From Umboniibacter marinipuniceus (lineage in GTDB: Bacteria > Pseudomonadota > Gammaproteobacteria > Pseudomonadales > DSM-25080): a DNA stretch of 64,000 nucleotides. The position numbers and the translations under genes are program-made. Shown in pieces: positions 12,786 through 50,377 of this stretch. The notes under the pieces were generated by a model. It was given only the letters and a program-made list of their open reading frames with translations, had not been told where the DNA came from and searched no databases. Positions within the stretch are counted from its first letter, which is position 1; the number at the start of each line of letters is the position of its first letter. The DNA lies in the NCBI RefSeq assembly GCF_003688415.1, contig NZ_REFJ01000005.1, forward strand, positions 117,890 to 181,889, given 5' to 3'.

Positions 12786-12823
12786 ATGGGTGAAGGCCAA
12801 CGGAAAGTCCTGCAGTATGGATG

Positions 12824-12914
12824 CAAAACTCAAAACTCAAAACTCAAAGCTCAAAGCTCAAAGCTCAAAGCTTGATGGTCAAAGCTTGATGGTCAAAGCT
12901 TGATGGTCAAAGCT
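12824..12914. repeat. heptamer tandem repeat array, 13 units
   Basis: Ninety-one bases of consecutive 7-bp units: three CAAAACT, four CAAAGCT, then three alternations of TGATGGT and CAAAGCT. The unit boundaries stay in register across the whole array. It lies between the kinase terminator and the convergent 3' end of the GH13 gene, so it interrupts no gene. The order suggests stepwise slippage followed by duplication of a 14-bp composite unit. Confidence 0.95.
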
Positions 12915-12975
12915 CGATAGCAAATGATCAATACACCCCAACTTCCTAATCTCCGCCAACGCTTCGCGCCACCCC

Positions 12976-14853
12976 CTATTGTGGGCTAATGATTAGACCG
13001 CCAAACGCTTCCAGCTCAAGACTAATTTCAGCGCCTTGAGTGGTAATGCTAACGTCAATCGGCTCATTACTTAGTTTGTCTATTAACTTAGTCTGAGCGT
13101 CAATCTCAAGCATTAGGCGGACATTTTCGGGTATTTTTAGTGTATAGGCTGAAGCCTCGCGTCGGAAACTAGCGACTGTGATAAACCAGTCCGAATTAAG
13201 TTTTCGCACGAAAGCCATATCTTGGTCACCGTAGCCCGAGTTGGCCTGCAAATTGGCCTGGTGCAGGGGAATCATTTCTCCCATTACGGCGGAGCTATTC
13301 ACCGTGAAGTTCATGAGTGTGGTGTAGAACGCCCGAAGCGCAGCTTCCTGTTCGGTTAACTGACCACCGTCGAAGGCTCCACCGTTCATCCAGCGTTGGT
13401 GAGCGGGTACGCCCCAGTAATCAAAGATGGTGGTTCGAGTCTTACGTCCGAAGCCCGCATCAAGCATACCATCCTCGCCAACGTCTTGACCGAAATAGAG
13501 TAGCGTAGGTGAACTTGAGATGGTGGTTGATACTAACATCCCCGGCTTTCCCGCTAGGGGTGTTCCGGCGAACTCGTCACTCGCGATCCGTTGCTCGTCA
13601 TGGTTCTCTAAGAAGTGCAACATGGAAGGGCTAATATCGGCAACGGCTTCGTGGATGGCAAAGAGCTCCGAGACTGAGCCTTGTCCCTGCATAAGCGGCT
13701 TTAGCGTATCGTAGAAACCTACCTTATCGTAGAGGGTATCCATCAGCCCAAGTTGGAGGTAGCTTCGATACTGAGCCGGGTTATAGACTTCGGCTAAGAG
13801 AAAGGCGTCTTGGTTGGTTGCTTTGATATGACTGTTCAGATAGCTCCAGAATTCAACCGGCACCATTTCGGCCATATCATAGCGGAACCCATCCACACCG
13901 CGGGCGAGCCAATACTGGGTTATATCGCGAAACTTCAGCCAGGAATCAGGAACATCTACCTGTTCCCAGAACGCCAGATGTTCACGGTAGTTTGCACCAG
14001 TCAGTTCACTGGGAAGCGAGGGGAAATCGTAGCTTCCGTCAGGTCTAACGCCGTAGTTTATCTTGACCGTTTCGTACCAATCATTGGCATGTGGTTGCGC
14101 GAGTCGCGAGCCATTCCCCGTCCATTTAGCTGGCGTCTCGCTGAAGAAACCGTCGGCGAGAGGATGCGCTTCGCCATCCAGCGGTTGTTCGCCATTAATG
14201 GCATCGGGAACAATAAAGGCCTCATCTAAAATGTAGTAGAAATTGTTATCGCGCGCATAAACCACCGAGGTATCATCGTTAACACCAAAGCCTTCAATCC
14301 CCTCGGGCGCCGAAATTGATTCATAGCGCCGGGCAACATGATTCGGAACAATATCGATGACTACTTTCATTCCTGCATCGTGCGTGCGTGAAATAAGTGC
14401 ATCGAATTCTTCCAAACGCCTGCTAGGGTCATCGGCGAGATCCGGATTAACATTATAATAGTCCTTTACCGCATACGGCGATCCAGCACGCCCCTTCACT
14501 ACGTCGGGGTCATCAAGGCTAACACCAATATCGCGATAATCTCGGATAACAGCATGGTGAGGAACTCCGGTGTACCAGATATGCGTGGTTCCGAGTTCAC
14601 GGATCCCTTCAAGTGCTTCCGGTGTGAAGTCACTGAACTTGCCAACGCCATTCTGTTCAATCGTTCCCCAAGGGACGTTCGCGGTCTCGGTATTGCCGAA
14701 CAGGCGCGTGAAGACTTGATAAACCACCACCTTAGTTTGCTCCTCCTGAGTATGCGGTGGTTGCTGCGGATCCGTTCTATCCTCGCCGCAACCAACGATC
14801 ATAAACGCCGCCAGAAGGGCTTGTAGACTTAGACGAGAGGATTTGATACTCAT
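12976..14853 (-). CDS. GH13 alpha-amylase-family lipoprotein
   Basis: The protein has 625 residues from the ATG at 14853, which overlaps the upstream GH31 stop (ATGA). It has a lipoprotein signal with a FMIVGC lipobox (Cys22), so it should be membrane-anchored in the periplasm or on the surface. GH13 signatures: IVPNHV (region I), GFRYDMAE with the nucleophile Asp (region II), LLAEVY with the acid Glu (region III), FLENHDEQR with the transition-state Asp (region IV). All three catalytic residues are present. It probably cleaves maltodextrins or starch fragments; exact linkage preference is not readable. It is cotranscribed with GH31 and lies downstream of the MalT-type box at 17390. Confidence 0.9.
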   Translation of the reverse strand: MSIKSSRLSLQALLAAFMIVGCGEDRTDPQQPPHTQEEQTKVVVYQVFTRLFGNTETANVPWGTIEQNGVGKFSDFTPEALEGIRELGTTHIWYTGVPHHAVIRDYRDIGVSLDDPDVVKGRAGSPYAVKDYYNVNPDLADDPSRRLEEFDALISRTHDAGMKVVIDIVPNHVARRYESISAPEGIEGFGVNDDTSVVYARDNNFYYILDEAFIVPDAINGEQPLDGEAHPLADGFFSETPAKWTGNGSRLAQPHANDWYETVKINYGVRPDGSYDFPSLPSELTGANYREHLAFWEQVDVPDSWLKFRDITQYWLARGVDGFRYDMAEMVPVEFWSYLNSHIKATNQDAFLLAEVYNPAQYRSYLQLGLMDTLYDKVGFYDTLKPLMQGQGSVSELFAIHEAVADISPSMLHFLENHDEQRIASDEFAGTPLAGKPGMLVSTTISSSPTLLYFGQDVGEDGMLDAGFGRKTRTTIFDYWGVPAHQRWMNGGAFDGGQLTEQEAALRAFYTTLMNFTVNSSAVMGEMIPLHQANLQANSGYGDQDMAFVRKLNSDWFITVASFRREASAYTLKIPENVRLMLEIDAQTKLIDKLSNEPIDVSITTQGAEISLELEAFGGLIISPQ

Positions 14854-17249
14854 AACTTCAGTTCCCATTGAGTTTCAGTGTGAAGCGAGTGTGCCAATGA
14901 AAATGACAGAGTTTTTGCTTGGTCGTCAAAGGCGGCGAGTGCTGAAGCACCATTGATAGTCAGTTCAGCTGGGGCTTCGTTAATGCCATGGATAACAATA
15001 CGAAGATTGCGCTGCTCGGGCATCCCGGCGTATCCCTTGCCTTGGCTTGAAATTTCACCCTGAAGAGCTAATCCGTCGTGGCTTGCTGTGAGATGAATAA
15101 GTTCGAATGACTGATTGCTAATTGAATTCGGGTCTAGACCATCGTCCTCAAAAACCTGTGCGCTGCTCGAAACGACCTCGGGATCGAAATAGAAGTGAAC
15201 ATCTAGCTCGTCGCCTCGGTATGCCGAGGTATTAGCAATGTCCTCTCGGGTCATGGTGATAAACGAGCCGCCGCGAACAAGCAGTGGTAGCTTAGTGATA
15301 GGAGCCTCATATTTAATAGTTTGGCCGCCCGAAAATACCTCGCTGGACCAAAAGTCGTACCAATGACTGCCGCTGGGCAACTTAATGTCGGCGCTGCGCT
15401 GCTGGTCTGCGGTAATTGGATGAACAAGAAACGCGTCACCATAGAGATATTGAGAGGTGGAGAGCAGGTCATTTGGGTCATGACTAATGAAGCTCATGGG
15501 GCGCATCATCGGGTCCCCCAGGGTGCTATTCAGATATGAAAGCGTATAGAGGTAGGGCAACAGGCGATAGCGAAGCTTCGCATAGGGGCGTGTTAACGCT
15601 TGCGTTGCGCTATCATGGAATACGGGTTCTGAGGCAATATTTTCCTGGGCGTGGGGGCGGAGTACCGGTTGGAAAACGCCGTATTGGAACCACCGCACGT
15701 AAAGCTCAGGATCGAAAACATCGCCACCGGCAAAGCCACCGATATCCGAGTGCATATACGCTAAGCCTTGAAGGCCTGCTTGAAGCGAGAGCTCAATCTG
15801 CGATTGTAGTCCGCCCCATGTGCGATTCACATCGCCAGTCCAGGGGATAAGGCCAAAGCGCTGGGATCCAGCGTAACCAGCTCGCATCATGATGAACGGG
15901 CGCTGATTTGGCTGCGCATCGCGAAGTGTTTCGTCAAGTAATTGAGCCCATTGATGGCCATAGGCGTTGTGAACCGCGTTGGCGGGTACTAAACCACCAT
16001 CGCTAAGGTGGAAACTATCTGCTGGATGCACTTCCGGTTCGCCTAGGTCGCCCCACCATCCGGTCACACCATAGCCAGCTAAGCGTTTATATACCTGAGC
16101 AAACCAATTCTGGCCGGCGGTTGAAAAGACATCTACTAGCCCGGTATTACCGAAGTAGAAATCGAAAGTCTTTGGCGCCCCGGATTCATCGATCGCCAGA
16201 GCGTTGGCCGCAACAGCATTGTCCCATTGCGCGGAGCTGGTCAGGATAAACGGTTCGGTAATGAGTACGGTGTTTACCCCAGCCTGCTGAAAGTCGGCAA
16301 TCATCGCTTCTGGCGTGGGCCAATTATCGGTATCCCACTCCAAATTTCCCATGGTGCCCTTCATTTCCTTACCAAACCAATAGAGGTCCAGCACGATAGC
16401 ATCAAGCGGAAAGTCATGCTCAGCGAAGGCGGAGACTACTTTGCGGGCCTCGTGCTCGGAGTGATAACCAAAGCGAGAAGCATAGAGTCCAAGCGACCAG
16501 CGCGGCGGAAGGGGCTGATAACCGGTAGTTTTAACGTAGTTTCTAACCAGCGACTGCAATGATCCGCCAGTGATAATCACAAAGGACGCTGAACCGTGCT
16601 CACTATTGAAGTTCAGTTGGTTGTTTGCCTTGCTATCAAGATCTAACCACCCCGAAGAAGGGTTGTCCCAAAGAATCGCGTAGTGTTTGTCTGAAAGCAC
16701 CAATGGTAACGAGTAGTACATTTGCTCGCTGTGCGTCTCAAATCCGTAGTGAGCCCGATTGTATAGCGGAAGTCGATGGCCTCGACGGTTAACTCCCAAA
16801 ACGCGAGATCCTCCACCCATAAGTACTTCGTTGTTGGTGAGCGAAAAGCTGGCACTGCTTGCGTTCGATTCGCTGTGAAGATTGAGGACTTCAGTTAGCT
16901 GCGTCTCGCCATCGCGGAGGAACTTAATGCTAAAAGGGCTAGGGGTGATCACCGCCTGAATTGACTCAGAACCAAATACCAGTTGTTGATTCTCTTCATT
17001 CAAACGGGCGTGAGCCGTTGACAGTTTGGGCGAGATAGCTCTGGAAGGGGGAGGGGCTATTGAGCTTGGATTGAAGTCCACACGAATGGCGTTGTCGTGA
17101 AGCAGGGTTAAGACATAGAAACCCTCATCCGTAGCGAGTGTAAGCTCTGCGGTGGACGTTTCGTGACTAACAAGTTGCTCAGAGTGCGTCGCAGTAGCCG
17201 CTAGGACGAGTATGGCGGCTAGGGTGAGGGACGAGAGTCTATTCAACAT
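14850..17249 (-). CDS. GH31 family alpha-glucosidase, exported
   Basis: The protein has 799 residues from the ATG at 17249 (AAGGA upstream), chosen because a signal peptide then begins at residue 1 (hydrophobic core LTLAAILVLAA, cleavage near THSE). GH31 features: a beta-sandwich N-domain, the barrel with LDLYWFG, the nucleophile motif WWGDLGEPEVHP, and the acid/base stretch WTGDVNRTW. C-terminal beta-domains follow. GH31 enzymes release glucose or xylose from non-reducing ends; beside amylases and malT an alpha-glucosidase (maltase) role is most likely. It is the first gene of the two-gene operon divergent from malT, with a MalT-type box about 38 bp before the inferred start of transcription. 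Confidence 0.9.
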   Translation of the reverse strand: MLNRLSSLTLAAILVLAATATHSEQLVSHETSTAELTLATDEGFYVLTLLHDNAIRVDFNPSSIAPPPSRAISPKLSTAHARLNEENQQLVFGSESIQAVITPSPFSIKFLRDGETQLTEVLNLHSESNASSASFSLTNNEVLMGGGSRVLGVNRRGHRLPLYNRAHYGFETHSEQMYYSLPLVLSDKHYAILWDNPSSGWLDLDSKANNQLNFNSEHGSASFVIITGGSLQSLVRNYVKTTGYQPLPPRWSLGLYASRFGYHSEHEARKVVSAFAEHDFPLDAIVLDLYWFGKEMKGTMGNLEWDTDNWPTPEAMIADFQQAGVNTVLITEPFILTSSAQWDNAVAANALAIDESGAPKTFDFYFGNTGLVDVFSTAGQNWFAQVYKRLAGYGVTGWWGDLGEPEVHPADSFHLSDGGLVPANAVHNAYGHQWAQLLDETLRDAQPNQRPFIMMRAGYAGSQRFGLIPWTGDVNRTWGGLQSQIELSLQAGLQGLAYMHSDIGGFAGGDVFDPELYVRWFQYGVFQPVLRPHAQENIASEPVFHDSATQALTRPYAKLRYRLLPYLYTLSYLNSTLGDPMMRPMSFISHDPNDLLSTSQYLYGDAFLVHPITADQQRSADIKLPSGSHWYDFWSSEVFSGGQTIKYEAPITKLPLLVRGGSFITMTREDIANTSAYRGDELDVHFYFDPEVVSSSAQVFEDDGLDPNSISNQSFELIHLTASHDGLALQGEISSQGKGYAGMPEQRNLRIVIHGINEAPAELTINGASALAAFDDQAKTLSFSLAHSLHTETQWELKL

Positions 17250-17389
17250 TGAGCGGTCCTTGATGTGATTGCAGCGAATAATACATTCTAGTTGACTTCC
17301 CAAATCTCTACGGCTTGTTTATATTGCGCAGGCGGAGTGAGATTGGTTGTCATGATGTTTATGATAATATGAGCTAGCGCGATTTTCTG

Positions 17390-17407
17390 CCTCCTCCCAG
17401 TGGGGGC
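17390..17407. promoter_or_regulatory. MalT-box-like site between GH31 operon and malT
   Basis: On the minus strand 17399-17390 reads TGGGAGGAGG, matching the E. coli MalT box GGGGA(T/G)GAGG at 9 of 10 positions. A possible -10, TATTAT (17369-17364), lies 20 bp further on. The plus strand reads CCCAGTGGGGG (17396-17406), identical to the core of the site at 45754. Candidate plus-strand -10 hexamers (TAATAA, TAAATA around 17424-17432) precede malT, so autoregulation is possible. Confidence 0.7.
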
Positions 17408-17454
17408 GCATTCATAACTAGAATAATAAATAATCGGTACCTTAGGATTTGCCC

Positions 17455-20163
17455 ATGCTGTTAACCTCTAAGATTAGTCTGCCCGATGTCTCCGATCTTA
17501 TGCTTGATCGAGATCGACTCACTTCGGCATTGCTGCAATCTAAAAATGATCAAGTGATCTCTATTGTTGCGCCAGCAGGATTCGGGAAGACAACCTTAAT
17601 GGCCTCGTTTATTGAGGCAACAGACTCTTTAGTAGCTTGGTATTCGCTGGACGAAAATGATAACGAAGGTCGTCACTTTCTGGCCTATTTGGTTGAGTCT
17701 GTCCACCGAGCCACTGGCAATGGTATTCCTCGAAGCAGAGCTATTATCGAAGCAAAGTCAGCGGTGGATATTCGCGCCGTGATTGCTGAAATGCTCGAAG
17801 AATTACGCAGTCTGTCGGCACCGCTGAGGATTGTCTTTGATGATTTTCATGTTATTGATAATGCGGAGGTAGAGGCTGCTGTTAAGTATCTTTTAAAACA
17901 CGCGCCCGCGGGTATTGGCTTTGGCTTCACAAGTCGAAGTACGCCGTCCTTAGGTCTGGCGAGCTACCGAGTGTCCAATCGATTAATTGAAATCAACGAT
18001 GACGCACTGGCGCTGACTGCAGACGAGACAGCGGAGCTATTATATAAGCGTTTAGGCTTTCGCCTCCCCGAACCCGCGCTACTTCAATTACAGGAACTGA
18101 GTGAAGGGTGGGCACCCTTGGTTCAGCTGTTCGCGCTGTCGGTAGATAGTGAATCCGACGTTGATGCCTTCCTTGCGGATTTTGAGCGCGGGCATAGCCA
18201 CCTACTAGATTATTTGGCGGAAGAGGTGCTCGATAAATTGGATGACGAGACGCGACAGGTACTTGCTCGCGTTAGTCTGCTTCGTCGTATTGACGGTGAG
18301 ATGGCAGAGCAGGTTAGCGGTAGTCCGCGCGCTCAAGAAATTTTGACATCCGCGTATCATCGCGGTTTGTTCCTAAGCCCTATTGACCGCAGCAGAACCT
18401 GGTTTCGATTTCATCCTGTCTTTGCCAAATTCCTAGAGCGCTCACTGACTTCTAGTGAACGGGTTGCGGTACATGAAGCCGCGCTACAAGCTTGGCTGGC
18501 GCTGGAAGATCCGCTGGAGTCCCTTACTCATGCCGTGGCGTTAAAGTCGGTAGAGTCGGTGATGGAAATTATGCAGCGCTATGCGTCAACGCTTTTGCTA
18601 AAGGGGCACTATCGGACCTTGGCAAGGTGCTTTGAATTCATTGGCGAAGCACGCATAGTGGCGTCACCGAGCTTAACGGTTCTTGGCGCTAAACTTGCTC
18701 AAGCTCAGTATGAATATGACAAAGTGGAGCATCTACTCACCTTAGGAGAGCGTTATATTCGTTTAAACTTAGCTGACGAATGGCAGGGTGTAGAAGGCGC
18801 GTTTGCAACGCTTAGGGCGCAAATGTCCATCGCTCGCGGTAACTTTGTCGAAGCGAGAGAATACGCGGATGAAGCCCTGCAGCTTCTCGATGAATCGGAA
18901 ATTGATCATACCGTTGCGTCGTTGGTCATGGGTGAGTCAGCGTTTTGCCTGGGACGTTTAAACGAGGCCTTTACGCGTATGAGTGAGCTAGAGCGTCGTT
19001 CTCGTTTACAAAAGGATTTTCCAGATGCGGTATGGGCGCTTAGTCAGCAGGCGGAGATTGCCTTCGCGCAAGGTAAGCCTACGCTCTCAGTACAGTGTCA
19101 GAACAAAGCACGCGAACTGATTGAAGCGCATCACTTACATATGTTGCCGGTGGGCGAGTTTATCTTCCGTTTAGGGGCGCAGCAGGATTGGGAGTCGCTC
19201 AACCTCGAGCGCGCCAAGGAACGTATTAATTTGGGGCTGGCGGCCAATAAGCATCTTGGTGAGAGCCGATTGTTACAGGAGTATTCACTGCTCGCAAATA
19301 TCGCGCTTGCCGAAGCCGATAAGGAGAGCTGTTTAGCCTGGTTAGATAAATTAAGTGATCTTTTGAGTCGCGAACGCTATCACTTGGACTGGGTCGTCAA
19401 TGCCGATTACGCGCGCCTATCAATTTGGGAGGCGCTAGGTGATACCGCTGCGATTGAGGAGTGGCTGGATTCAGCGTTGAGTGTAAATGAGGCGCCCTCT
19501 AATCACTTTGAGCAGCGCCATGGTCGCAACGTGATTCGGGCCATGATTGCTCTACAACGATTTGCCGATGCAGGCCGACTGATCAAGCGTCTGAATCGTT
19601 TTGCAAAGCAATTTAAGCTGGTGACTGAACTCAATAAGAACGCCATTATCGAGGCCTACTTTGAATGGCAGCAGGGTAATCGAGAGGCGTCGATTCAGGC
19701 GTTACACGGCGCGCTCGCCATGGCTCTTGGGACGGGAATTCGCGCCAGTTTTTTGCGCTGCGGAAAGCCATTGATTTTGATGTTGAAAGGGCTCATTAAA
19801 GATGCCGAGCTGTCGGTGAGTGAAGCAGACCTTGCGGAGCAACTCATTGGCATCACCCAGCGACATCGTGAGTTTGATGGCCGAATTCGTATTGACCTTG
19901 ATGCGAGTGTTATCGAGGAAATTTTACAGAGCGAGCAGCTTCCGGAGATTCTTAGGCAGTCACCACTTACACCTCGCGAGTGGCAAGTCTTTAACCTCAT
20001 CCATCTCGATTTTTCCAATGCCAAGATCGCCGAACATTTTGAAGTAGCGCCAAGTACCATCAAAACGCATATTCGCAGCCTCTATCAAAAGCTGGGCGTG
20101 GAAGATCGATCCGCCGCCAAGCAGTTAGCTGAGACACTTCTTTTAGCCGTTCAGCAGGCGTGA
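17455..20163 (+). CDS. malT: MalT, ATP- and maltotriose-dependent transcriptional activator
   Basis: The protein has 902 residues (E. coli MalT 901) from the ATG at 17455, with AGGA 7 nt upstream; the in-frame TTG at 17449 is too close to it. The N-terminus MLLTSKISLPDV aligns with E. coli MLIPSKLSRPV. Domains: STAND NTPase with Walker A APAGFGKTTL and Walker B LRIVFDDFHVID, winged helix, a long superhelical TPR-like sensor domain (about 400-800), and a C-terminal LuxR-type helix-turn-helix (LTPREWQVFNLI, APSTIKTHIRSLYQKLGV) nearly identical to E. coli in the recognition helix. In E. coli it activates maltose genes when bound to ATP and maltotriose. The surrounding amylase and glucosidase genes and three matching boxes support the same role. 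Confidence 0.96.
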   Translation: MLLTSKISLPDVSDLMLDRDRLTSALLQSKNDQVISIVAPAGFGKTTLMASFIEATDSLVAWYSLDENDNEGRHFLAYLVESVHRATGNGIPRSRAIIEAKSAVDIRAVIAEMLEELRSLSAPLRIVFDDFHVIDNAEVEAAVKYLLKHAPAGIGFGFTSRSTPSLGLASYRVSNRLIEINDDALALTADETAELLYKRLGFRLPEPALLQLQELSEGWAPLVQLFALSVDSESDVDAFLADFERGHSHLLDYLAEEVLDKLDDETRQVLARVSLLRRIDGEMAEQVSGSPRAQEILTSAYHRGLFLSPIDRSRTWFRFHPVFAKFLERSLTSSERVAVHEAALQAWLALEDPLESLTHAVALKSVESVMEIMQRYASTLLLKGHYRTLARCFEFIGEARIVASPSLTVLGAKLAQAQYEYDKVEHLLTLGERYIRLNLADEWQGVEGAFATLRAQMSIARGNFVEAREYADEALQLLDESEIDHTVASLVMGESAFCLGRLNEAFTRMSELERRSRLQKDFPDAVWALSQQAEIAFAQGKPTLSVQCQNKARELIEAHHLHMLPVGEFIFRLGAQQDWESLNLERAKERINLGLAANKHLGESRLLQEYSLLANIALAEADKESCLAWLDKLSDLLSRERYHLDWVVNADYARLSIWEALGDTAAIEEWLDSALSVNEAPSNHFEQRHGRNVIRAMIALQRFADAGRLIKRLNRFAKQFKLVTELNKNAIIEAYFEWQQGNREASIQALHGALAMALGTGIRASFLRCGKPLILMLKGLIKDAELSVSEADLAEQLIGITQRHREFDGRIRIDLDASVIEEILQSEQLPEILRQSPLTPREWQVFNLIHLDFSNAKIAEHFEVAPSTIKTHIRSLYQKLGVEDRSAAKQLAETLLLAVQQA

Positions 20164-20213: not shown

Positions 20214-20238
20214 ATCCCCCCCCTCGTGGGGGATGCGG
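20214..20238. promoter_or_regulatory. MalT-box-like inverted repeat before oligo-1,6-glucosidase gene
   Basis: ATCCCCC (20214-20220) and GGGGGAT (20228-20234) are perfect inverted arms with a 7-nt spacer. The right arm continues as GGGGATGCGG (20229-20238), matching the E. coli MalT box at 9 of 10 positions. A possible -10, TACTAT (20255-20260), follows 16 bp later. The left side contains a run of eight C. Confidence 0.72.
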
Positions 20239-20296: not shown

Positions 20297-21928
20297 ATGG
20301 CTCTGCAATCACCCGAATGGTGGCGTAACGGCATCATCTATCAGGTCTATCCTCGCAGCTTCAATGATACGAGCGGCGACGGTATCGGCGATCTTAAAGG
20401 TGTTACCGCTAAACTCGACTATATTCAGTCGCTTGGCGTTGATGCAGTCTGGTTGTCCCCGTTCTACAAGTCTCCGATGGTTGATTTTGGCTATGACGTA
20501 GCAGACTACCGTGACGTAGATCCAATGTTCGGCTCCTTAGCGGATTTTGATGAATTAATTGCCGAAGCCCATGCTAAGGGACTAAAAGTAGTTATTGATC
20601 AAATCTATAGTCACACCTCAGATCAACATGCTTGGTTCGAAGAGAGCCGTCAAAGTAGAGATAACCCAAAGGCAGACTGGTACGTTTGGGCGGATACCAA
20701 GCCGGATGGGAATCCTCCTAATAACTGGGTTTCGGTATTCGGTGGATCTTCCTGGAAGTGGGATACGCGTCGTAATCAGTACTACCTGCATAACTTTTTG
20801 ACGGAACAACCTGATCTGAATGTGCACAATCCAGAGGTGCAGGAGCAACTGCTTGCTGACTTACGTTTTTGGCTGGACCGAGGTGTAGACGGCTTTCGTT
20901 TGGATGCGATCAATTTTTGCTGCCACAACCAGAGCCTCGAGGATAATCCACCAAAGTACGCCAGCCTTGCGGAGTATGGTGACAGCATTCCACCAAACCA
21001 GTATGACTACCAATGGCATGTGAACGACAAAACTCAGCCGGAAACCGCAGCCTTCCTACAGCGTGTTCGCGCGGTATTGAATGAATACCCGGGCACCATG
21101 GCAGTGGGTGAAATTGGCGATGACAATATGATTGATGTCATGACTCAATATACAACGGATAATCGCCTGCACTGCGCCTATTCCTTCGAGCTACTCGCCG
21201 AAGACTGCGACGCAGAGTTCTTCCGCAGAATTATTCGTGAGTCGAATGATCTGATTACCAAAGGGTGGGCTTGCTGGAGTATTGGTAATCATGATGTACC
21301 GCGAGTCATTACGCGTTGGAACGCCGATGAGCTAGATCAAGCCGCTAAGGAAGACCGAGCGGCGCTATTCTGGTTGATGCAATTCACACTGCGCGGTAAT
21401 AGTTGTATCTATCAGGGCGAAGAGCTTGGGCTTAGCGAAGCCGAGATTGCCTTTGAGGACTTACAAGACCCATATGGAATCAACCTGTGGCCCGAATTTA
21501 AGGGGCGTGACGGTTGTCGGACTCCTATGCCGTGGGATTCATCGTTAGCGAATGCGGGCTTTTCATCAGCTAAGCCTTGGCTACCAGTAGTCCCGGAGCA
21601 CATTGAACGCTCAGTTGATGTGATGGAGGCCGATAGTTCCAGCCTATTACATCGTTTCCGCTCGGTGGTGAATTGGAAGAACCAACAGCAGTGGCTCAAG
21701 ATGGCTGATCTCGAGTTGATTGAGGACACCGGAGAGCTGCTTGCTTTCTACCGTGATATTGATGGTCACCGATACATTATCATTCTCAACTTAGGGGCAA
21801 CTCAACAGAGCTACCCCTTATTCACCGCGGGTGCTGAGAATTTGACCCCCGATAACTATGCCCATGAAGTATCACCAAGTGCGGTAGTTCTCCCCCCAAG
21901 TGGCGCAGTTGTTTTAAAATTAGCGTAA
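20297..21928 (+). CDS. GH13 oligo-1,6-glucosidase / alpha-glucosidase, cytoplasmic
   Basis: The protein has 543 residues without a signal peptide. The N-terminus (WWRNGIIYQVYPRSFNDTSGDGIGDLKGV) and the region-V motif QPDLN place it in the oligo-1,6-glucosidase group (GH13_23-like). Catalytic segments: DQIYSHTS, GFRLDAINF (nucleophile Asp), VGEIGD (acid Glu), IGNHDVPR (Asp). It should hydrolyse terminal alpha-1,6 or alpha-1,4 glucosyl links of imported malto-/isomalto-oligosaccharides. The start has AAAGG upstream. A MalT-type inverted repeat sits in its promoter, just downstream of malT. A terminator and then a secreted amylase gene follow. Confidence 0.93.
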   Translation: MALQSPEWWRNGIIYQVYPRSFNDTSGDGIGDLKGVTAKLDYIQSLGVDAVWLSPFYKSPMVDFGYDVADYRDVDPMFGSLADFDELIAEAHAKGLKVVIDQIYSHTSDQHAWFEESRQSRDNPKADWYVWADTKPDGNPPNNWVSVFGGSSWKWDTRRNQYYLHNFLTEQPDLNVHNPEVQEQLLADLRFWLDRGVDGFRLDAINFCCHNQSLEDNPPKYASLAEYGDSIPPNQYDYQWHVNDKTQPETAAFLQRVRAVLNEYPGTMAVGEIGDDNMIDVMTQYTTDNRLHCAYSFELLAEDCDAEFFRRIIRESNDLITKGWACWSIGNHDVPRVITRWNADELDQAAKEDRAALFWLMQFTLRGNSCIYQGEELGLSEAEIAFEDLQDPYGINLWPEFKGRDGCRTPMPWDSSLANAGFSSAKPWLPVVPEHIERSVDVMEADSSSLLHRFRSVVNWKNQQQWLKMADLELIEDTGELLAFYRDIDGHRYIIILNLGATQQSYPLFTAGAENLTPDNYAHEVSPSAVVLPPSGAVVLKLA

Positions 21929-21946
21929 CGTTCCCATTAGCGCTTT

Positions 21947-21980
21947 GGGATGGTATCTATTCGTTACCATCCCTTTTTTT
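21947..21980 (+). terminator. intrinsic terminator between the two amylase-family genes
   Basis: GGGATGGTA (21947-21955) and TACCATCCC (21965-21973) form a 9-bp stem followed by seven T. It ends 15 bases before the next start codon, so expression of the downstream amylase would depend on readthrough or an unseen promoter. Confidence 0.9.
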
Positions 21981-21995
21981 ATTAAGGATTTGGCA

Positions 21996-23366
21996 ATGAA
22001 AACACGCCTACTTTTCTCAACTTTGATGACCGTAATCACTGCAATCACAGGGGTAAATGCGGTAGCCGATCAGTCAGCCCCAAAGGCTAATCCGAATACA
22101 TTTGTTCATCTCTTTGAATGGCGTTGGGAAGATATTGCAGCCGAGTGTCGTGATCATTTACCTGGATTAGGTTATGACGCGATTCAAGTTTCACCTGCTA
22201 TTGAACACATTGACCACCCAAGTTGGTGGGCGAGATATCAGCCGGTCGATTTTTCGAAGTTCGAATCATTCAGTGGTGGCGAAGAAGCGCTCCGCTCAAT
22301 GATTGAGACTTGCCATGCGGCAGGTATCAAAGTGTATGCCGACGCGGTGATTAATCATACGGCCGATTACGGCGAGCAAGGAGTTGGTACTGCCGGAACA
22401 CCTTGGGAAATTATGCAGCATCCTGGTCTTGATGAAAGTCACTATCACCACCCCATCTGTACCATTGAGGACTACAGCAATGCGGATGAGGTCCAGAATT
22501 GTCGGCTTGGAGCGCTTCCAGACCTAAATACGTCTGATTCCTATGTCCGCGAGTTGTTGGCGGCGTACCTACGAAAGCTTAGTGAGCTTGGCTTCGATGG
22601 GATGCGTATTGATGCGGCTAAGCACATGTCGGCGGCAGACGTAGCAGCGATCTTGGAGCTCGCAGGTGGGCCGAATGTCTTTCTCGAAGTCATTGGCGAT
22701 CCCTCGGCAGAAACTGCGTTACAGCCTTCAACGTATGCGGCGATCGCCCCTGTCACCGATTTCGCCACTCGCGGTGCAATTTATTCGGCTATAAACGGTG
22801 ATCTCTCGGACTTAGCGAGCTATTGGCGCGGGGAGTCGGATTTATCGGCTGATATGGCTGTGACCTTCGTGGATAATCATGATACCGAGCGACATACTCA
22901 GCCATTATCAATTGCTCAAAAACAGCTAGGTGAGGCGCTGCTTCTGACGTTGGGCTACGGTTACCCCAAGGTACTCTCTGGATACCAGTTTGAAAACCGA
23001 GATGCGTTACCCTCGCAGGCTCAGGTATCTTGTGAACAGGGATGGACGTGTTGGCATCGGGACCCAATAGTGAGCCAGTTTGTCCAGCTTCGTCGTGCGG
23101 CAGGTGGTGCTCAACCTGAGCAGCTGGAGTATCTCGATGATCAAGTTTTGGCGTTTAGCTATGGACCAGGCCGGGTGTTAGTTAATGTATCCAACGAGAC
23201 TAAGTCAGTAAGCTGGGATCCGCAGCTTAGTGGTTCGGAATACTGTGATCTTTTGGCGGGTCATGGCAGTGTGGTAGAGCTTGGTTGGTGGGGTGACGTT
23301 GACATTTCGCTGCCACCCCATGGTCTGGTGCTGTTACGGGAAGATGCAGTCTGTTCGGCTCCGTAA
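21996..23366 (+). CDS. secreted alpha-amylase, GH13, animal/Pseudoalteromonas type
   Basis: The protein has 456 residues from the ATG at 21996, with AAGGA upstream; earlier in-frame codons would run through the terminator. A signal peptide precedes ADQSAPKANP. NTFVHLFEWRWEDIAAEC is characteristic of the animal-type alpha-amylases that include the cold enzyme of Pseudoalteromonas haloplanktis. Catalytic segments: DAVINHT, GMRIDAAKH (nucleophile Asp), VFLEVIG (acid Glu), FVDNHDTER (Asp). It is an endo-acting extracellular or periplasmic starch enzyme. No separate starch-binding domain is visible. It lies 67 nt after the oligo-1,6-glucosidase gene, behind its terminator. Confidence 0.94.
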   Translation: MKTRLLFSTLMTVITAITGVNAVADQSAPKANPNTFVHLFEWRWEDIAAECRDHLPGLGYDAIQVSPAIEHIDHPSWWARYQPVDFSKFESFSGGEEALRSMIETCHAAGIKVYADAVINHTADYGEQGVGTAGTPWEIMQHPGLDESHYHHPICTIEDYSNADEVQNCRLGALPDLNTSDSYVRELLAAYLRKLSELGFDGMRIDAAKHMSAADVAAILELAGGPNVFLEVIGDPSAETALQPSTYAAIAPVTDFATRGAIYSAINGDLSDLASYWRGESDLSADMAVTFVDNHDTERHTQPLSIAQKQLGEALLLTLGYGYPKVLSGYQFENRDALPSQAQVSCEQGWTCWHRDPIVSQFVQLRRAAGGAQPEQLEYLDDQVLAFSYGPGRVLVNVSNETKSVSWDPQLSGSEYCDLLAGHGSVVELGWWGDVDISLPPHGLVLLREDAVCSAP

Positions 23367-44679: not shown

Positions 44680-44804
44680 TACGTTCTGCTAATCAATAAT
44701 TCGCTTCGCAGGCTTGGCTGGCCTAAATCTTCGGATAGTGCCAATTGCGACCGAGAAAGGTGTTTGGCTATGATGACTATTCACAGCGTTCAAGGAGATC
44801 TGCA

Positions 44805-45686
44805 TTGGAACCTCAGCAAAGTATTTTCAGCGATGGTCATAATCATCGACTATTTCTTGAATTTAGCCTGAATGAATCACCTAATCTGAAAACGGTTAAA
44901 GCCGCCCTTCGTGCGCTTCGAGCACAGAGCGAAGTGGAGGTTGTGGTGGCATTCGGTCGAAAATTTTCGCGGCTATTGGAAATTGCGCTACCTAACAATT
45001 TCCATGACTTTGCATCTCTAGAGAGCTCTAGTGGCGCTATTGCCCCAGCTACTCAGAATGATCTTTTTGTGTGGCTGCAGGGCGAAGATTCGGCTATTTT
45101 CGAAGTCAGCTTCCAGCTTGTTCAGGCACTGCAGAATTCTCTGTCCATTGAACGAGAGCTCAATGGGTTTGATTATCGTGAATCGAAGGATTTAATGAGC
45201 TTTGAGGACGGTAGTGCCAATCCTAAAGGGTCGGCGATACAGACCGCAGCGCTGGTTCCTGAGGGAGAAGCTGGTGAGGGTGGCAGTATCGTATTAACTC
45301 AACAGTGGGTCCACAAGCTTGCCAAATTCTTTGCGTTGACACCGCATGAACAGAGCGCCGTGATTGGTCGAGATAAGGCAACTAACGAGGAGCTGAGCAG
45401 TGAGGATATGCCCAATAACGCCCACGTTGCGCGAACCGACGTAGACTTGGACGGCGTGCCAACCAAAGTCTGGCGTCGCTCCAGCCCCTATGGCACTCCA
45501 AGTAAGCATGGTCTTTATTTTCTCAGTTTCAGCTGCGACCAGCGGCGTCATCAGTTGCAGTTGGATTCCATGTACGGGCTCACTGGGGATGGCGTGAGCG
45601 ATCATATCCTTGCGTTTTCCGATGCGGTCTCCGGCAGTTATTACTTCGCTCCGTCGGAAACGGTATTGCGCGAGATGCTTAGCTAG
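44805..45686 (+). CDS. DyP-type heme peroxidase (YfeX-like)
   Basis: The protein has 293 residues from a TTG at 44805. I chose it because AAGGAG (44793-44798) lies 6 nt upstream and the N-terminus then aligns with E. coli YfeX (299); the ATG at 44745 would add 20 residues without a ribosome site. SFEDGSANPKG is the GxxDG-type distal motif with the catalytic aspartate; the proximal heme histidine is in NNAHVARTD; the C-terminus is GSYYFAPSETVLREML, close to YfeX. No signal peptide, so cytoplasmic. It uses H2O2 to oxidise dyes or porphyrinogens; the natural substrate is unclear. Confidence 0.93.
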   Translation: MEPQQSIFSDGHNHRLFLEFSLNESPNLKTVKAALRALRAQSEVEVVVAFGRKFSRLLEIALPNNFHDFASLESSSGAIAPATQNDLFVWLQGEDSAIFEVSFQLVQALQNSLSIERELNGFDYRESKDLMSFEDGSANPKGSAIQTAALVPEGEAGEGGSIVLTQQWVHKLAKFFALTPHEQSAVIGRDKATNEELSSEDMPNNAHVARTDVDLDGVPTKVWRRSSPYGTPSKHGLYFLSFSCDQRRHQLQLDSMYGLTGDGVSDHILAFSDAVSGSYYFAPSETVLREMLS

Positions 45687-45753: not shown

Positions 45754-45792
45754 CAAGCTTACCTCCCCCCCCCAGTGGGGGAGGTAAGCTTG
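45754..45792. promoter_or_regulatory. 39-bp palindrome with MalT-box-like core before second TonB receptor
   Basis: Perfect 16-bp arms, 45754-45769 and 45777-45792, with a 7-nt spacer. The inner part is CCTCCCCC...GGGGGAGG, a MalT-box-like half on each strand (GGGGAGGTAA at 45778-45787 matches 7 of 10 of GGGGA(T/G)GAGG). A possible -10, TATAAG (45802-45807), follows, which puts the box near -32. A run of nine C (45765-45773) is included. No U-tract follows, so a terminator for the peroxidase gene is unlikely. Confidence 0.68.
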
Positions 45793-45955
45793 TCTAGAGT
45801 GTATAAGAATGCTCTAACTCGCAAAAGCGGGTGCAGCTACTAAACTTATAAGCTGTTACGAAGCAGGTTGCTGACTAATACGTCCGCACCAACAATGCTG
45901 AGATAATAATAACGTTGAATACGTCTCAGACTTATTTACACAAGGGGAAGATAAC

Positions 45956-48775
45956 ATGCCAGCAGTGAATACGTTCCGTCGTTCACGCCTAGCAGCCAGT
46001 ATCTCAATGGTACTGGGGGGTGTCAGTGCGGGTGCTTTGCACGCGCAAGATCAAGATCAAGTTCAAGAAGAAGCCGTTGTTGAAGAAGTTGTTGTCACGG
46101 GTTTCCGAGCCAGCTTGGAAGATTCTGTTGCAACAAAACGTGATAGCTCGTCCATTGTTGAAGCTATCTCAGCTGAAGATATCGGTAAGCTTCCAGATGT
46201 TTCCATTGCGGAAAGCTTAGGCCGACTACCTGGGTTAACTGTTCAGCGATTGAACGGTCGAGGGCAGGTTGTTGCTGTCCGCGGTATGTCACCAGACTTC
46301 TCGACGGGCCTCCTAAATGGCCGCGAGCAAGTTTCAGTGGGAGACAACCGCGGTGTTGAATTTGATCAGTATCCATCGGAACTACTGCACGGTGCTGTGG
46401 TTTATAAAACCCCGGATGCTGCGCTGATTGGCCAGGGTCTCTCCGGTACGGTTGATCTCCACACCGTTCGTCCACTTGAGTATGGTGAGCGAAACATTAC
46501 TATCAACGCTAAATACGAAGCACTTGACTACGATCTAGTGTCTAACCGTGATAACACGGGTAACCGTTTTAGCGCTACCTACATTGATCAGTTTGCTGAT
46601 GAAACCATTGGTTTGATGTTGGGCTACTCTCACACCAAATCGCCTAACCAAGGTCAGCACTTCAACTCGTGGGGCTACTACAACGGTGACGGCAACGGTA
46701 ATAACGCCATTGGCGGTGGCCGTTTGTACGCTCGTGCGGGAATGTTAGAGCGTGATAGCTTCGTTACCACTGTTGAATTTGCTCCGTCAGATCGTATGAG
46801 TGCGTCAATGGACGTGTTCTATTCAGAGTTCACTGAAGATCAAATTAAGCATGGTATGGCACTGTGTTTGGCTTGTGGTGCAACCATGACGGTGATTGAC
46901 ACTAAAGATGGTGTTGTCACTGAAGGTATCTACGACGGTGTTAAAAACATCCTAGAAAACAATCAGTTTAAGCGCGATGCTGAGTCACTGTCTGTTGGCT
47001 TCAATGTTGAATTCCAACTTAATGATCAATGGAATTTGGAAGCAGACGTTTCTCATTCAAGTATTGATCGTAGTGATATTGCTGAGCTCGAAACTAACGC
47101 CGGTACTGGTCCGAATGGCCAGGGAGCGTTAGATACCGTTCATTTCTGGTCAACTCCAGATGGTACCCAGTTCGAAACAGCGCTTGATTACACTAACGTT
47201 GATTACAACTCGGCGAACCCGATTTATGTTACTAGCCCAGCTGGATGGGGTGACCCAAGCGCGCTAGCACCTTACCAGCCAGCTGGACAGTTTGGTTATA
47301 ACAAAGTATTTGACGTTTCTGATGACATTAACGCTTTCCGCGCTGCGGTTTCGGGCGAGCTTGATTTTGGTGTCGTAACGGGCGTTGAGATGGGATACAA
47401 CTACACCAGCCGTGAAAAGACTCGTGTTTCTAACGAAGGTGTCATCACCAGTAACGTGACCGATGCGAATGGTGATTTGCTGGACAAGGTAGAAATTCCT
47501 AGCGGCATCGTTGGTCAGACTTCACTGGACTTTGGTTTGCGTGGAGCGAACACTTCGATGTTAGCTTACGATCCATCGGCATTGCTCGCGAGCGGCGTTA
47601 TTCAACAGGGTGCTTACCTCTATAACGACATCTTGGCGAAGGCATGGGAAGTTAACGAATCTGTTAATACGGTTTACGTTAAGTTTGATGTCGATGCAGA
47701 GATTGGCGATATGCCGCTAACCGGTAATTTCGGTGTTCAGTATCAGTTTTGGGATCAAGACTCTCGTGGTCAGAACGCTACAGGTGCCGGCTCAAGTATT
47801 CAATCTGAGTACTACGAAGGCGAAGCAAGTGATTCAGAGATTCTTCCAAGCTTGAACTTGAGCTTGGCAGTTACCGACGATCAAATTGTTCGCTTGGGCT
47901 TGGCTCGCACACTTGCTCGTCCACGTATGGATGAGATGCGCGCGTCAGGTACCTATGGTTACAACGCCAATAATGCCAATACCACTCAGGCTGATATTGA
48001 TGCGTTAATTGCTTCAGGTGTGTCTGAAATCAGTGCATATCAGCAGCTTTCTCCTTGGGGCCGTGGCGGTGGTAACATCGAATTGACTCCTTGGGTTGCT
48101 GACGCTGTCGATCTTTCATACGAGTACTACTTCGAAGATGGCCTAAGCTATGTTTCTGGTGCGGTATTCTACAAAGATTTACAGAGCTACATCTTCAATC
48201 AGAACGTTCTCTTCGACTTTACCGGTCTACCTCCACAAGGTCCTGCACCGCAGATTTACACAGGTGTAAGTAACCAGCCGGTCAATGGCGAAGGTGGCTC
48301 GATTGAAGGCTATGAGCTAACGGCATCGATTAACTTCGGTTTGTTTGCCGATTCACTTAGTGGCTTCGGTATCTTCGCGACTTACTCGAAGAACGATAGT
48401 GAGATCGAGCCGAACGGTCCAGGCTCTAACTCTCGTTTGCCGGGTCTTTCTGAAGACGTCTACAACCTAACGGCTTACTACGAAGATCATGGCTTCTCAG
48501 CACGTATCAACCAACGTTATCGTTCGGACTACGTGGGTGAGGTTTCAGGCTTCGGTGGAGCGCGAACAGGTTCTGATATCGCAGAAGAAACCATTGTGGA
48601 TGCGCAAATCGGCTACTCGTTCGATAGCGGTTCACTTGAAGGTCTTACCGTGATGCTTCAGGGCTTGAACCTGACTAACGAGCCGTTCCGTACGGTTGAT
48701 GTCAACACAGGTTATGCTACTGAGTACCAGACCTATGGTTCATCGTACATGCTAGGTGCTTCTTACACCTTCTAA
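45956..48775 (+). CDS. TonB-dependent receptor, probable maltodextrin importer (MalA-type)
   Basis: The protein has 939 residues. A signal peptide ends near LHAQ, followed by a TonB-box-like EEVVVTGFRASL. The plug (SIAESLGRLPGLTVQRLNGRGQVVAVRGMSPD) and the length fit the TIGR01782 group that includes Caulobacter MalA. The barrel ends MLGASYTF. AAGGGGAAG precedes the ATG. The promoter has a MalT-box-like palindrome, which links it to the starch genes 22 kb away; that is the main reason for proposing a maltodextrin substrate. A terminator and a halogenase gene follow. Confidence 0.92.
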   Translation: MPAVNTFRRSRLAASISMVLGGVSAGALHAQDQDQVQEEAVVEEVVVTGFRASLEDSVATKRDSSSIVEAISAEDIGKLPDVSIAESLGRLPGLTVQRLNGRGQVVAVRGMSPDFSTGLLNGREQVSVGDNRGVEFDQYPSELLHGAVVYKTPDAALIGQGLSGTVDLHTVRPLEYGERNITINAKYEALDYDLVSNRDNTGNRFSATYIDQFADETIGLMLGYSHTKSPNQGQHFNSWGYYNGDGNGNNAIGGGRLYARAGMLERDSFVTTVEFAPSDRMSASMDVFYSEFTEDQIKHGMALCLACGATMTVIDTKDGVVTEGIYDGVKNILENNQFKRDAESLSVGFNVEFQLNDQWNLEADVSHSSIDRSDIAELETNAGTGPNGQGALDTVHFWSTPDGTQFETALDYTNVDYNSANPIYVTSPAGWGDPSALAPYQPAGQFGYNKVFDVSDDINAFRAAVSGELDFGVVTGVEMGYNYTSREKTRVSNEGVITSNVTDANGDLLDKVEIPSGIVGQTSLDFGLRGANTSMLAYDPSALLASGVIQQGAYLYNDILAKAWEVNESVNTVYVKFDVDAEIGDMPLTGNFGVQYQFWDQDSRGQNATGAGSSIQSEYYEGEASDSEILPSLNLSLAVTDDQIVRLGLARTLARPRMDEMRASGTYGYNANNANTTQADIDALIASGVSEISAYQQLSPWGRGGGNIELTPWVADAVDLSYEYYFEDGLSYVSGAVFYKDLQSYIFNQNVLFDFTGLPPQGPAPQIYTGVSNQPVNGEGGSIEGYELTASINFGLFADSLSGFGIFATYSKNDSEIEPNGPGSNSRLPGLSEDVYNLTAYYEDHGFSARINQRYRSDYVGEVSGFGGARTGSDIAEETIVDAQIGYSFDSGSLEGLTVMLQGLNLTNEPFRTVDVNTGYATEYQTYGSSYMLGASYTF

Positions 48776-48799
48776 TAGGCCGTAGGAACACGTAAGCTA

Positions 48800-48834
48800 G
48801 ACCCTCAAGGACTCGTGTCGTTGAGGGTCTTTTT
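48800..48834 (+). terminator. intrinsic terminator between TonB receptor and halogenase genes
   Basis: GACCCTCAA (48800-48808) and TTGAGGGTC (48821-48829) form a 9-bp stem followed by five T. It should reduce, not necessarily abolish, readthrough into the halogenase gene, which starts 32 nt later. Confidence 0.88.
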
Positions 48835-48865
48835 CGTTCAAAACGTAGAATAATAGGGACGACTA

Positions 48866-50377
48866 GTGGTAGATAATTCAATAAAAAAAGTGGTTGTGGT
48901 AGGTGGCGGTACCGCCGGTTGGATGGCCGCGGCGTTACTTGGTAAGTTGATGGGTAAGCTGGTTAGCGTTGAGCTGGTGGAGTCCGATCAAATTGGTACG
49001 GTTGGTGTGGGTGAGGCAACCATACCGCAAATTCGTCATTTGACCGATGCATTACAAATATCTGAGCAGGATTTTCTGAAGTCCGTGCAGGGAACCTACA
49101 AGTTAGGTATTGAATTCAATGACTGGGGTAAGCTTGGTGACTCCTATATTCATACCTTTGGGGACGTTGGACGTCGTCTAGGGGTCTTGGATTATCATCA
49201 GGTGTGGCTTCGTGGTCGAGAATTGGGCTTGACCGAAGATTTTTGGGGCGCCTCGTTTAATGAGATTGCCGCCCGAGCGAATAAGTTTGCGCCCGTAGAG
49301 AAGATCGGTAATACCGGTTTGCTTGGTCTAGGGTACGCGTTCCACTTTGATGCTACGCTCGTGGCAAAGTATCTACGCAACTACGCCGAGCCATTAGGGG
49401 TAAAGCGCAGTGAAGGGCATATTCAGCAGGTCTTAAAGGACCCTGATTCGGGTTATATTACTCAGCTTAAGCTGGAGGACGGGCGCTTAGTTGAAGGCGA
49501 TCTTTTCATAGATTGTTCTGGCTTTAGAAGTCTTCTGCTAGGTGAGGCGTTAGCAACTCCCTACGTTAATTGGAGTCATTGGTTGCCCTGTAATAGCGCC
49601 CAAGCCGTCCCGACAAAAGCCACCGAGCCACTCGTCCCCTACACCAAGGCAACGGCAAGAAAGGCCGGCTGGCAATGGCGCATTCCGCTGCAGCATCGAG
49701 TGGGCAACGGTCATGTCTATGCCAGTGACTTTATCAGTGATGCTGAGGCAACGGACATCCTGTTGGCTAACTTAGATGCTGAGCCGCTCATGGCACCTAA
49801 ACAACTCCGCTTCACTACCGGAAAGCGAGAGAATTTCTGGGTCAAAAACTGTATTGCTTTAGGGCTCGCGAGTGGTTTCATGGAACCGCTTGAGTCAACG
49901 AGTATTCATCTGGTGCAGTCGGCACTTAGCCGCCTTATTGACCTATTCCCAACGCGTGAATTTTCTGAGGCAGACGTTGCTGAGTACAATACTCGAACGC
50001 ATTTCGAATACGACACTATTCGCGATTTCCTCATTCTTCACTATAAGGCCACAAGCCGAGATGATTCCGAGTTTTGGAATTACTGCCGAAATATGTCAAT
50101 TCCTGATAGCCTGCAGCACAAGTTTGATCTTTGGCAAAACCATGGTCGATTCTTTCGAAATGACGATGAACTCTTTACTCAGATGAGTTGGGTTCAGGTA
50201 TTTTTAGGGCAGAATATTATTCCTAGTGACTGCCACCCAATTGCCAAGAGTCTGACGAAAGATCAAGTACAGGGCTATAGCGCAGATATACGGAGAATTC
50301 TTTTGCAGACGGTAGATCAAATGCCCAGTCATGCTGAGTTCATCGCTCAACATATCGCTGCGCCGCGTCTGGATTGA
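48866..50377 (+). CDS. flavin-dependent (tryptophan-type) halogenase
   Basis: The protein has 503 residues from a GTG at 48866 with AGGGA upstream. The FAD-binding motif is VVGGGTAGWMAA, the halogenase motif WxWxIP is present as WQWRIP, the catalytic lysine is Lys79 (GTYKLGIEF; the number matches PrnA and RebH), and the EPLEST glutamate motif is at about 340-345. An active halogenase is therefore predicted; a separate flavin reductase would be needed and is not adjacent. Such genes are often found beside TonB receptors in Caulobacter, Brevundimonas (BrvH) and marine bacteria; the natural substrate is unknown. It has no evident promoter between the terminator and start, so it may depend on readthrough from the receptor gene. 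Confidence 0.92.
   Translation: MVDNSIKKVVVVGGGTAGWMAAALLGKLMGKLVSVELVESDQIGTVGVGEATIPQIRHLTDALQISEQDFLKSVQGTYKLGIEFNDWGKLGDSYIHTFGDVGRRLGVLDYHQVWLRGRELGLTEDFWGASFNEIAARANKFAPVEKIGNTGLLGLGYAFHFDATLVAKYLRNYAEPLGVKRSEGHIQQVLKDPDSGYITQLKLEDGRLVEGDLFIDCSGFRSLLLGEALATPYVNWSHWLPCNSAQAVPTKATEPLVPYTKATARKAGWQWRIPLQHRVGNGHVYASDFISDAEATDILLANLDAEPLMAPKQLRFTTGKRENFWVKNCIALGLASGFMEPLESTSIHLVQSALSRLIDLFPTREFSEADVAEYNTRTHFEYDTIRDFLILHYKATSRDDSEFWNYCRNMSIPDSLQHKFDLWQNHGRFFRNDDELFTQMSWVQVFLGQNIIPSDCHPIAKSLTKDQVQGYSADIRRILLQTVDQMPSHAEFIAQHIAAPRLD

Follow-up and report, generated by a model that had tools for sequence, protein, structure and literature searches.

Background

The halogenase described here belongs to the type of flavin-dependent halogenase (FDH) represented by BrvH and Xcc4156. 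According to the available sections of PMC7336383, it is still not known what BrvH and three Xcc halogenases act on in nature, and the same is said there of Xcc4156. Transcripts of the rebH/prnA type have been reported, and their authors speculate that the products may be bactericidal or that virus-host receptors may be affected through redox changes; the available part of that report (PMC11337851) makes no link between halogenases and TonB receptors. Among the titles and abstract openings listed for halogenases in combination with TonB receptors or with sugar regulons, none describes a receptor-halogenase link, though one may well be published.

Alpha-glucan uptake has its own described systems. 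XCC2469, of the MalA/XCC2469 maltodextrin CUT locus, is reported to be induced by maltose (PMC1790865). The MalT box of E. coli and Klebsiella reads GGGGA(T/G)GAGG and is positioned 34.5-35.5 upstream in E. coli, and opposed MalT boxes (TCATCC-5 nt-GGATGA) are reported in Actinoplanes (PMC7567727, available sections).

Here we describe a locus of Umboniibacter marinipuniceus in which the two subjects meet. The window, meaning the whole stretch of DNA analysed, comprises 64,000 nucleotides (contig NZ_REFJ01000005.1, positions 117,890 to 181,889). Its FDH, of the BrvH/Xcc4156 type, is probably a working enzyme encoded last in a maltodextrin receptor unit under MalT control, and expressed at a low level by readthrough. 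As far as sequence can tell, the anatomy given in a preliminary description of the locus is confirmed, its view of the regulation is strengthened and its scope is generalised.

The halogenase gene and its product

The FDH gene (48866-50377, + strand) encodes 503 aa, has no internal stop and begins with a GTG codon, 90 bp after the receptor gene, which ends at 48775, as first described. An SD-like AGGGA can be read from the sequence together with the GTG (48854-48868, + strand). The protein matches PF04820 at 622.6 bits over profile positions 1-456 of 458 (Pfam). The motifs that mark the family are present: GxGxxG as GGGTAG (residues 13-18), the catalytic lysine as Lys79 within YKLG (78-81), WxWxIP as WQWRIP (269-274) and the catalytic glutamate within EPLEST (340-345), which we take to be the second Glu of that motif, E343 (PrnA numbering). 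The closest solved structures, 9luq, 6y1w and 6frl, together span the full length of the protein; 6y1w is presumably Xcc4156. The entry 6frl is BrvH (PMC7336383).

Three regular expressions based on the Trp-lid motifs of groups A and B, as given in the available part of PMC8269204, found no match in the protein. By this test it lacks the Trp4 lid motif of the Trp 5/6/7-halogenases, as do the BrvH/Xcc (group C) indole halogenases. The residue after EST is Ser, not Gly, and Ser is also reported at this place in BrvH and two Xcc enzymes (PMC7336383). Because no tested lid motif is present and Ser follows EST, free tryptophan is judged an unlikely substrate.

The preliminary description had called the halogenase active-looking and not a decayed relic. 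One point could speak for a relic: the window genome holds a single FDH copy at E 1e-50 or better and its near relative G002 holds five. Against this, the catalytic residues are intact and comparison with the 92% identical G002 copy gives a dN of 0.049 against a saturated dS of 2.7, which indicates that selection keeps the gene. Decay is hardly credible, and the FDH is seemingly a working halogenase.

The FDHs directly behind this receptor clade retain the catalytic Lys in 17 of 17 cases and the Glu in all 16 that cover the site. In a halogenase tree the window FDH falls in a 33-tip clade (support 0.998). Since this clade holds 14 of those 17 FDHs, the pairing looks inherited within the group; the other three (L027, L028 and L050) lie outside it. 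At L027 (3144-5975), where the same receptor type lies in front, a single ORF running up to the end of the contig encodes two halogenase domains head-to-tail.

A sister lineage of FDHs resembles pseudo-halogenases. The catalytic Lys is replaced by S, C or T and the Glu is lost (T in 16 of 22). In the alignment 189 FDHs cover the Lys position, and 22 of them are Lys-less; these come one each from L030, L031, L033-L036, L039-L041, L045-L047, L049, L052, L054, L055, L077, L080, L084, L162, L164 and L165. From their residues they seem to be either pseudo-halogenases or enzymes that catalyse a different reaction.

The receptor and the alpha-glucan cluster

The upstream gene (45956-48775, + strand) encodes a TonB-dependent receptor (TBDT) that matches TIGR01782 at 553.8 bits, above the cut-off of 310, and belongs to a clade with relatives in alpha-glucan loci. 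Among 390 genomes of the order, with at most two candidates scored per genome, the receptor was found at E 1e-110 in 16, of which 13 are beyond the genus. A GH13-cluster gene is present at 10 of these 13 loci. Neighbours at the loci of receptor relatives, annotated through one representative per gene cluster, include genes for cyclomaltodextrinase, alpha-amylase, pullulanase, CBM26, glucokinase, LacI and MFS proteins. The receptor of a gammaproteobacterial MAG (L026) has alpha-amylase, LacI and MFS neighbours, and that of a Massilia (L028) has cyclomaltodextrinase and GH31. The clade is not purely alpha-glucan, because in Rhodoferax (L050) the neighbours are GH1 and, by cluster membership, GH3 instead of alpha-glucan genes.

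The window carries its own alpha-glucan cluster at 13.0-23.4 kb. Two genes lie on the - strand, a GH13 gene (12976-14868; PF00128, 69 bits) and a GH31 gene (14850-17303). On the + strand follow the likely regulator, a MalT-like activator with TPR_MalT and a LuxR-type HTH (17449-20163), a GH13 gene (20297-21928; PF00128, 424 bits) and a GH13-like gene (21945-23366; PF00128, 57 bits). The TIGR01782 match, the GH13-cluster genes of the relatives and this MalT/GH13/GH31 cluster, which lies approximately 22 kb upstream of the receptor, agree with the first assignment of the receptor as maltodextrin-type.

Short direct repeats (CAAAGCTTGATGGT and variants) occupy 12820-12930, just past the end of the first GH13 gene. 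A Dyp-type peroxidase gene (44745-45686) lies directly 5' of the receptor promoter, and this pair is kept in G002.

MalT-box-like sites

An extended dyad, AAGCTTACCTCCCCC...GGGGGAGGTAAGCTT, precedes the receptor gene (45756-45790, no strand assigned). Its core (45762-45784) resembles two opposed MalT boxes, with one mismatch to the box on the - strand and two on the + strand. A candidate -10, TATAAG (45802-45807, + strand), was read from the sequence and is not listed by the promoter scan. It is separated by 17 nt from the preceding + strand MalT-like half of the dyad (45775-45784, the one with two mismatches), and is conserved in G002 and altered in the congeneric G001. If transcription is assumed to start 6-7 nt past TATAAG, the MalT-like box would begin approximately 38 nt upstream. 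Two further MalT-box-like sites, also without assigned strand, lie between the GH31 and MalT-like genes (17390-17408) and before the GH13 gene (20216-20238).

The pattern YCCNNGTGGGGG, a C-rich/G-rich dyad written after its three sites had been seen, has three matches in the window against 0.08 expected from shuffles, each before alpha-glucan or receptor genes. Genome-wide it has five matches against four for the reversed control, which is no excess. Because the pattern was derived from its own sites and shows no genome-wide excess, the case for MalT rests on a test with the published box.

The search for the published box covered the region between 220 bp upstream and 60 bp downstream of the start of the receptor ORF. 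When no more than one mismatch is allowed, the box is present ahead of the receptor in 8 of the 10 MalT-bearing genomes, the window genome being among those with a MalT homologue, and in none of five without (Fisher p 0.007, a value that is too small because the one-mismatch limit was chosen after the scores had been seen and five of the eight positive genomes belong to one genus). The positive genomes are G000, G002, G228, G143, G268, G017, G167 and G011, five with an exact box. The two counted as misses are G001, with a best box of two mismatches, and G357, with three. In G384, G304, G339, G058 and G090 MalT was not found at E 1e-30 and no receptor box is present; three of these (G304, G339 and G090) have a LacI-type gene at the receptor locus. 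G322 was left out because the receptor upstream region is cut by the contig end.

As a control, the other upstream regions at the same loci were searched, leaving out the window's own cluster. The box was found in 9 of 121 regions at nine MalT-positive loci versus 1 of 47 at five MalT-negative loci. Six of the nine precede GH13, GSDH/CBM26 or glucokinase genes (by cluster membership), and no control match precedes a gene labelled halogenase.

The receptor-halogenase pairing across genomes

The preliminary description had left it to the relatives to keep or lose the pairing. It is retained in both relatives within the genus, and in 10 of the 13 beyond it the FDH lies directly downstream of the receptor. 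The three without an FDH at that place include G357, where an FDH orthologue lies in a starch locus (GH13, CBM26) with no adjoining receptor and no MalT box before it. G357 thus indicates that the FDH can exist without an adjacent receptor. A polyketide synthase gene lies beside the mal-type FDH of this genome (L280, 6851-15000), on the side where relatives carry the receptor.

In a wider set, 66 genome-contig loci were found through the FDH. A TBDT lies immediately beside the FDH in 46 of them and elsewhere in the locus in 9; none was detected in 11, some of which are on short contigs. The best FDH matches within the order supplied another 20 loci, and in 18 of these the FDH follows the TBDT on one strand. 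Twelve genomes were selected because they carry this receptor. Of their 103 FDHs, 78 have one of the 150 listed TBDTs (of 209) no more than 5 kb away, and 76 of these 78 follow the TBDT on the same strand; given the 150 of 209, the distances are upper bounds. Eight f16 genomes have their best-scoring FDH at a different locus: in four it comes directly after another receptor, in three it belongs to an FDH array that a receptor precedes, and in one no receptor was found.

Among the gene clusters that recur across the retrieved loci, named by representative, are GH3 (32 loci), LacI (31), MFS (22) and GH16 (17). Another recurring order is TBDT-FDH-SapC-Cupin_8-FDH, seen at L093, L097, L166-L171, L173, L174, L176, L177 and L098 (8842-16908); SapC and Cupin_8 are annotated in L093 and assigned elsewhere by size and cluster. 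In the window's own genome, genes for TBDT, SapC, Cupin_8, SIS and amidohydrolase proteins share a locus that contains no FDH. Of the link first drawn between halogenase and starch, the recurrence at the alpha-glucan loci of this receptor stands, but the association is not starch-specific, as the GH3/GH16/LacI/MFS and SapC/Cupin_8 loci indicate.

The junction and the regulation of the halogenase

Between receptor and FDH lies an intrinsic terminator (48799-48834, + strand), as was first noted. Its stem (48799-48830) has a dG of -22.8 kcal/mol and is followed by a T-run (48830-48834). A consensus terminator scan with loops of 3-8 did not list it. The claim that the halogenase has no evident promoter of its own agrees with the promoter scan, which reported no + strand promoter-like site between the two genes.

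Terminators, counted as hairpins of -12 kcal/mol or better before a T-run, occur in 39 of 44 same-strand TBDT-FDH junctions (close relatives among them). For other co-directional gene pairs spaced 40-400 bp apart the figure is 40 of 286. In gaps of the same size range they were found at 17 of 24 between a TBDT and another gene and at 0 of 8 between FDHs. This size limit dropped 59 of 67 FDH-FDH, 350 of 636 other co-directional, 8 of 32 TBDT-other and none of the 44 TBDT-FDH gaps, and gene pairs came from a longest-ORF caller, so the controls include some false pairs. The five TBDT-FDH junctions without a terminator are L071, L082, L085, L166 and L167. Because terminators also follow TBDTs with other next genes, the terminator is, on this comparison, the receptor's rather than the halogenase's, and the FDH is kept behind it.

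The stem ends 35 nt before the start codon in the window, and at most 44 nt before the FDH start in 18 of the 39 terminator junctions. Many FDH starts were re-anchored on the GxGxxG motif, the longest-ORF start having run into the terminator. Such short distances leave little room for a separate promoter, and by this reading of the junctions they favour readthrough.

An alternative is that a separate promoter, which either overlaps the terminator or lies within the receptor gene, gives the FDH a regulation independent of the receptor, so that the neighbourhood reflects nothing more than inherited gene order. Receptor and FDH are purely divergent in 28 of the 66 loci, and five more have divergent and convergent copies; at divergent loci the FDH must have its own promoter. 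A TAGAAT lies between terminator and FDH start, and the FDH of G357 stands without a receptor. Against these points are the empty promoter scan, the 35 nt between stem and start, and the stretch between terminator and FDH start, which is not conserved in G001. We regard independent control at this locus as unlikely.

Under the preferred reading, that of a MalT-controlled receptor unit, MalT activated by maltotriose would bind the dyad core and drive the receptor gene. Most receptor transcripts would stop at the terminator, and a minority would read through, giving low-level FDH whenever alpha-glucan is taken up. The FDH is probably cytosolic, its FAD motif beginning at residue 13. With FADH2, O2 and a halide that is probably bromide, it would halogenate an electron-rich group resembling indole or phenol. 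The co-induction with starch uptake that was first suggested gains backing from the MalT-box-like dyad, and readthrough is what we infer with the 35 nt spacing in view.

What the halogenase may act on

Two proposals on the substrate are each compatible with the MalT-unit explanation. In one, the product of the FDH is a small halogenated compound for defence or signalling, which would be released during alpha-glucan feeding and be unconnected to uptake. BrvH is reported to brominate free indole at C3, but its activity on indole is low (PMC5945002). A PKS gene stands beside the FDH in one relative; none of eight scanned window neighbours is of an obvious biosynthetic family. We consider a small product possible, if somewhat doubtful. 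An orthodox secondary-metabolite cluster was rejected on the same scan of eight neighbours.

In the other proposal the target of the FDH is a peptide or protein that belongs to the uptake machinery, for example the receptor precursor before export. FDHs adjoin receptors at loci of several sugar types, and some of these loci also contain SapC, Cupin_8 and DUF6445 genes. Because the loci differ in sugar type, the common partner of the FDHs is the receptor. Larger or peptide substrates have been proposed for BrvH and Xcc4156 (PMC5945002, PMC7336383, available sections). Against this, 3 of 13 receptors of the clade have no FDH at that place, and no residue column clearly separates 107 FDH-linked receptors (after reassigning four at locus edges) from 46 unlinked ones in an alignment of 153. 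The receptor as substrate through one fixed residue was rejected: the lowest p was 0.0016 by tree-based simulation over the 116 tests that passed a difference filter, so no residue survives correction. A protein substrate seems to us improbable. The same low standing applies to a broader conjecture, that receptor-linked FDHs might form a dedicated class whose targets are peptides or proteins that take part in TonB uptake, either the receptor precursor or a small partner. SapC, Cupin_8 and the Lys-less sister FDHs would then be parts of one modification set that would follow the receptor and not the sugar.

An FDH behind a receptor for starch fragments, recurring in many bacteria, offers a concrete route to the natural job of an enzyme family. 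The genome has a single FDH that is probably sugar-inducible, and deleting this one gene and changing the growth substrate once could therefore be enough to reveal what the enzyme acts on in the cell.

Comparison with known systems

Xcc4156 of Xanthomonas campestris matches the window FDH over residues 6-500 at 483 bits; we assume that it is the structure behind the 6y1w match. BrvH (6frl), an indole 3-brominase, is of the same subgroup and matches over residues 3-494 at 434 bits. It shares with the window FDH the absence of a Trp lid motif and the Ser after EST (PMC5945002, PMC7336383), whereas Xcc4156 has Asn there (PMC7336383). No receptor link is mentioned for BrvH in the available text of PMC5945002, in which 'TonB' and 'operon' occur 0 times.

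The MalA/XCC2469 locus likewise has a TonB receptor beside alpha-glucan genes, but it has a repressor and the window a MalT-like activator (PMC1790865). In the available text of that paper 'halogenase' and 'tryptophan' occur 0 times. The opposed boxes of Actinoplanes resemble the opposed MalT-box-like halves of the window dyad, and the window box at approximately 38 nt is near, but not equal to, the position in E. coli MalT promoters (PMC7567727, available sections). A MalT-like activator is common to MalT regulons and the window. The outer-membrane member of classical MalT regulons is the LamB porin. The window has a TonB receptor in its place, with a halogenase behind.
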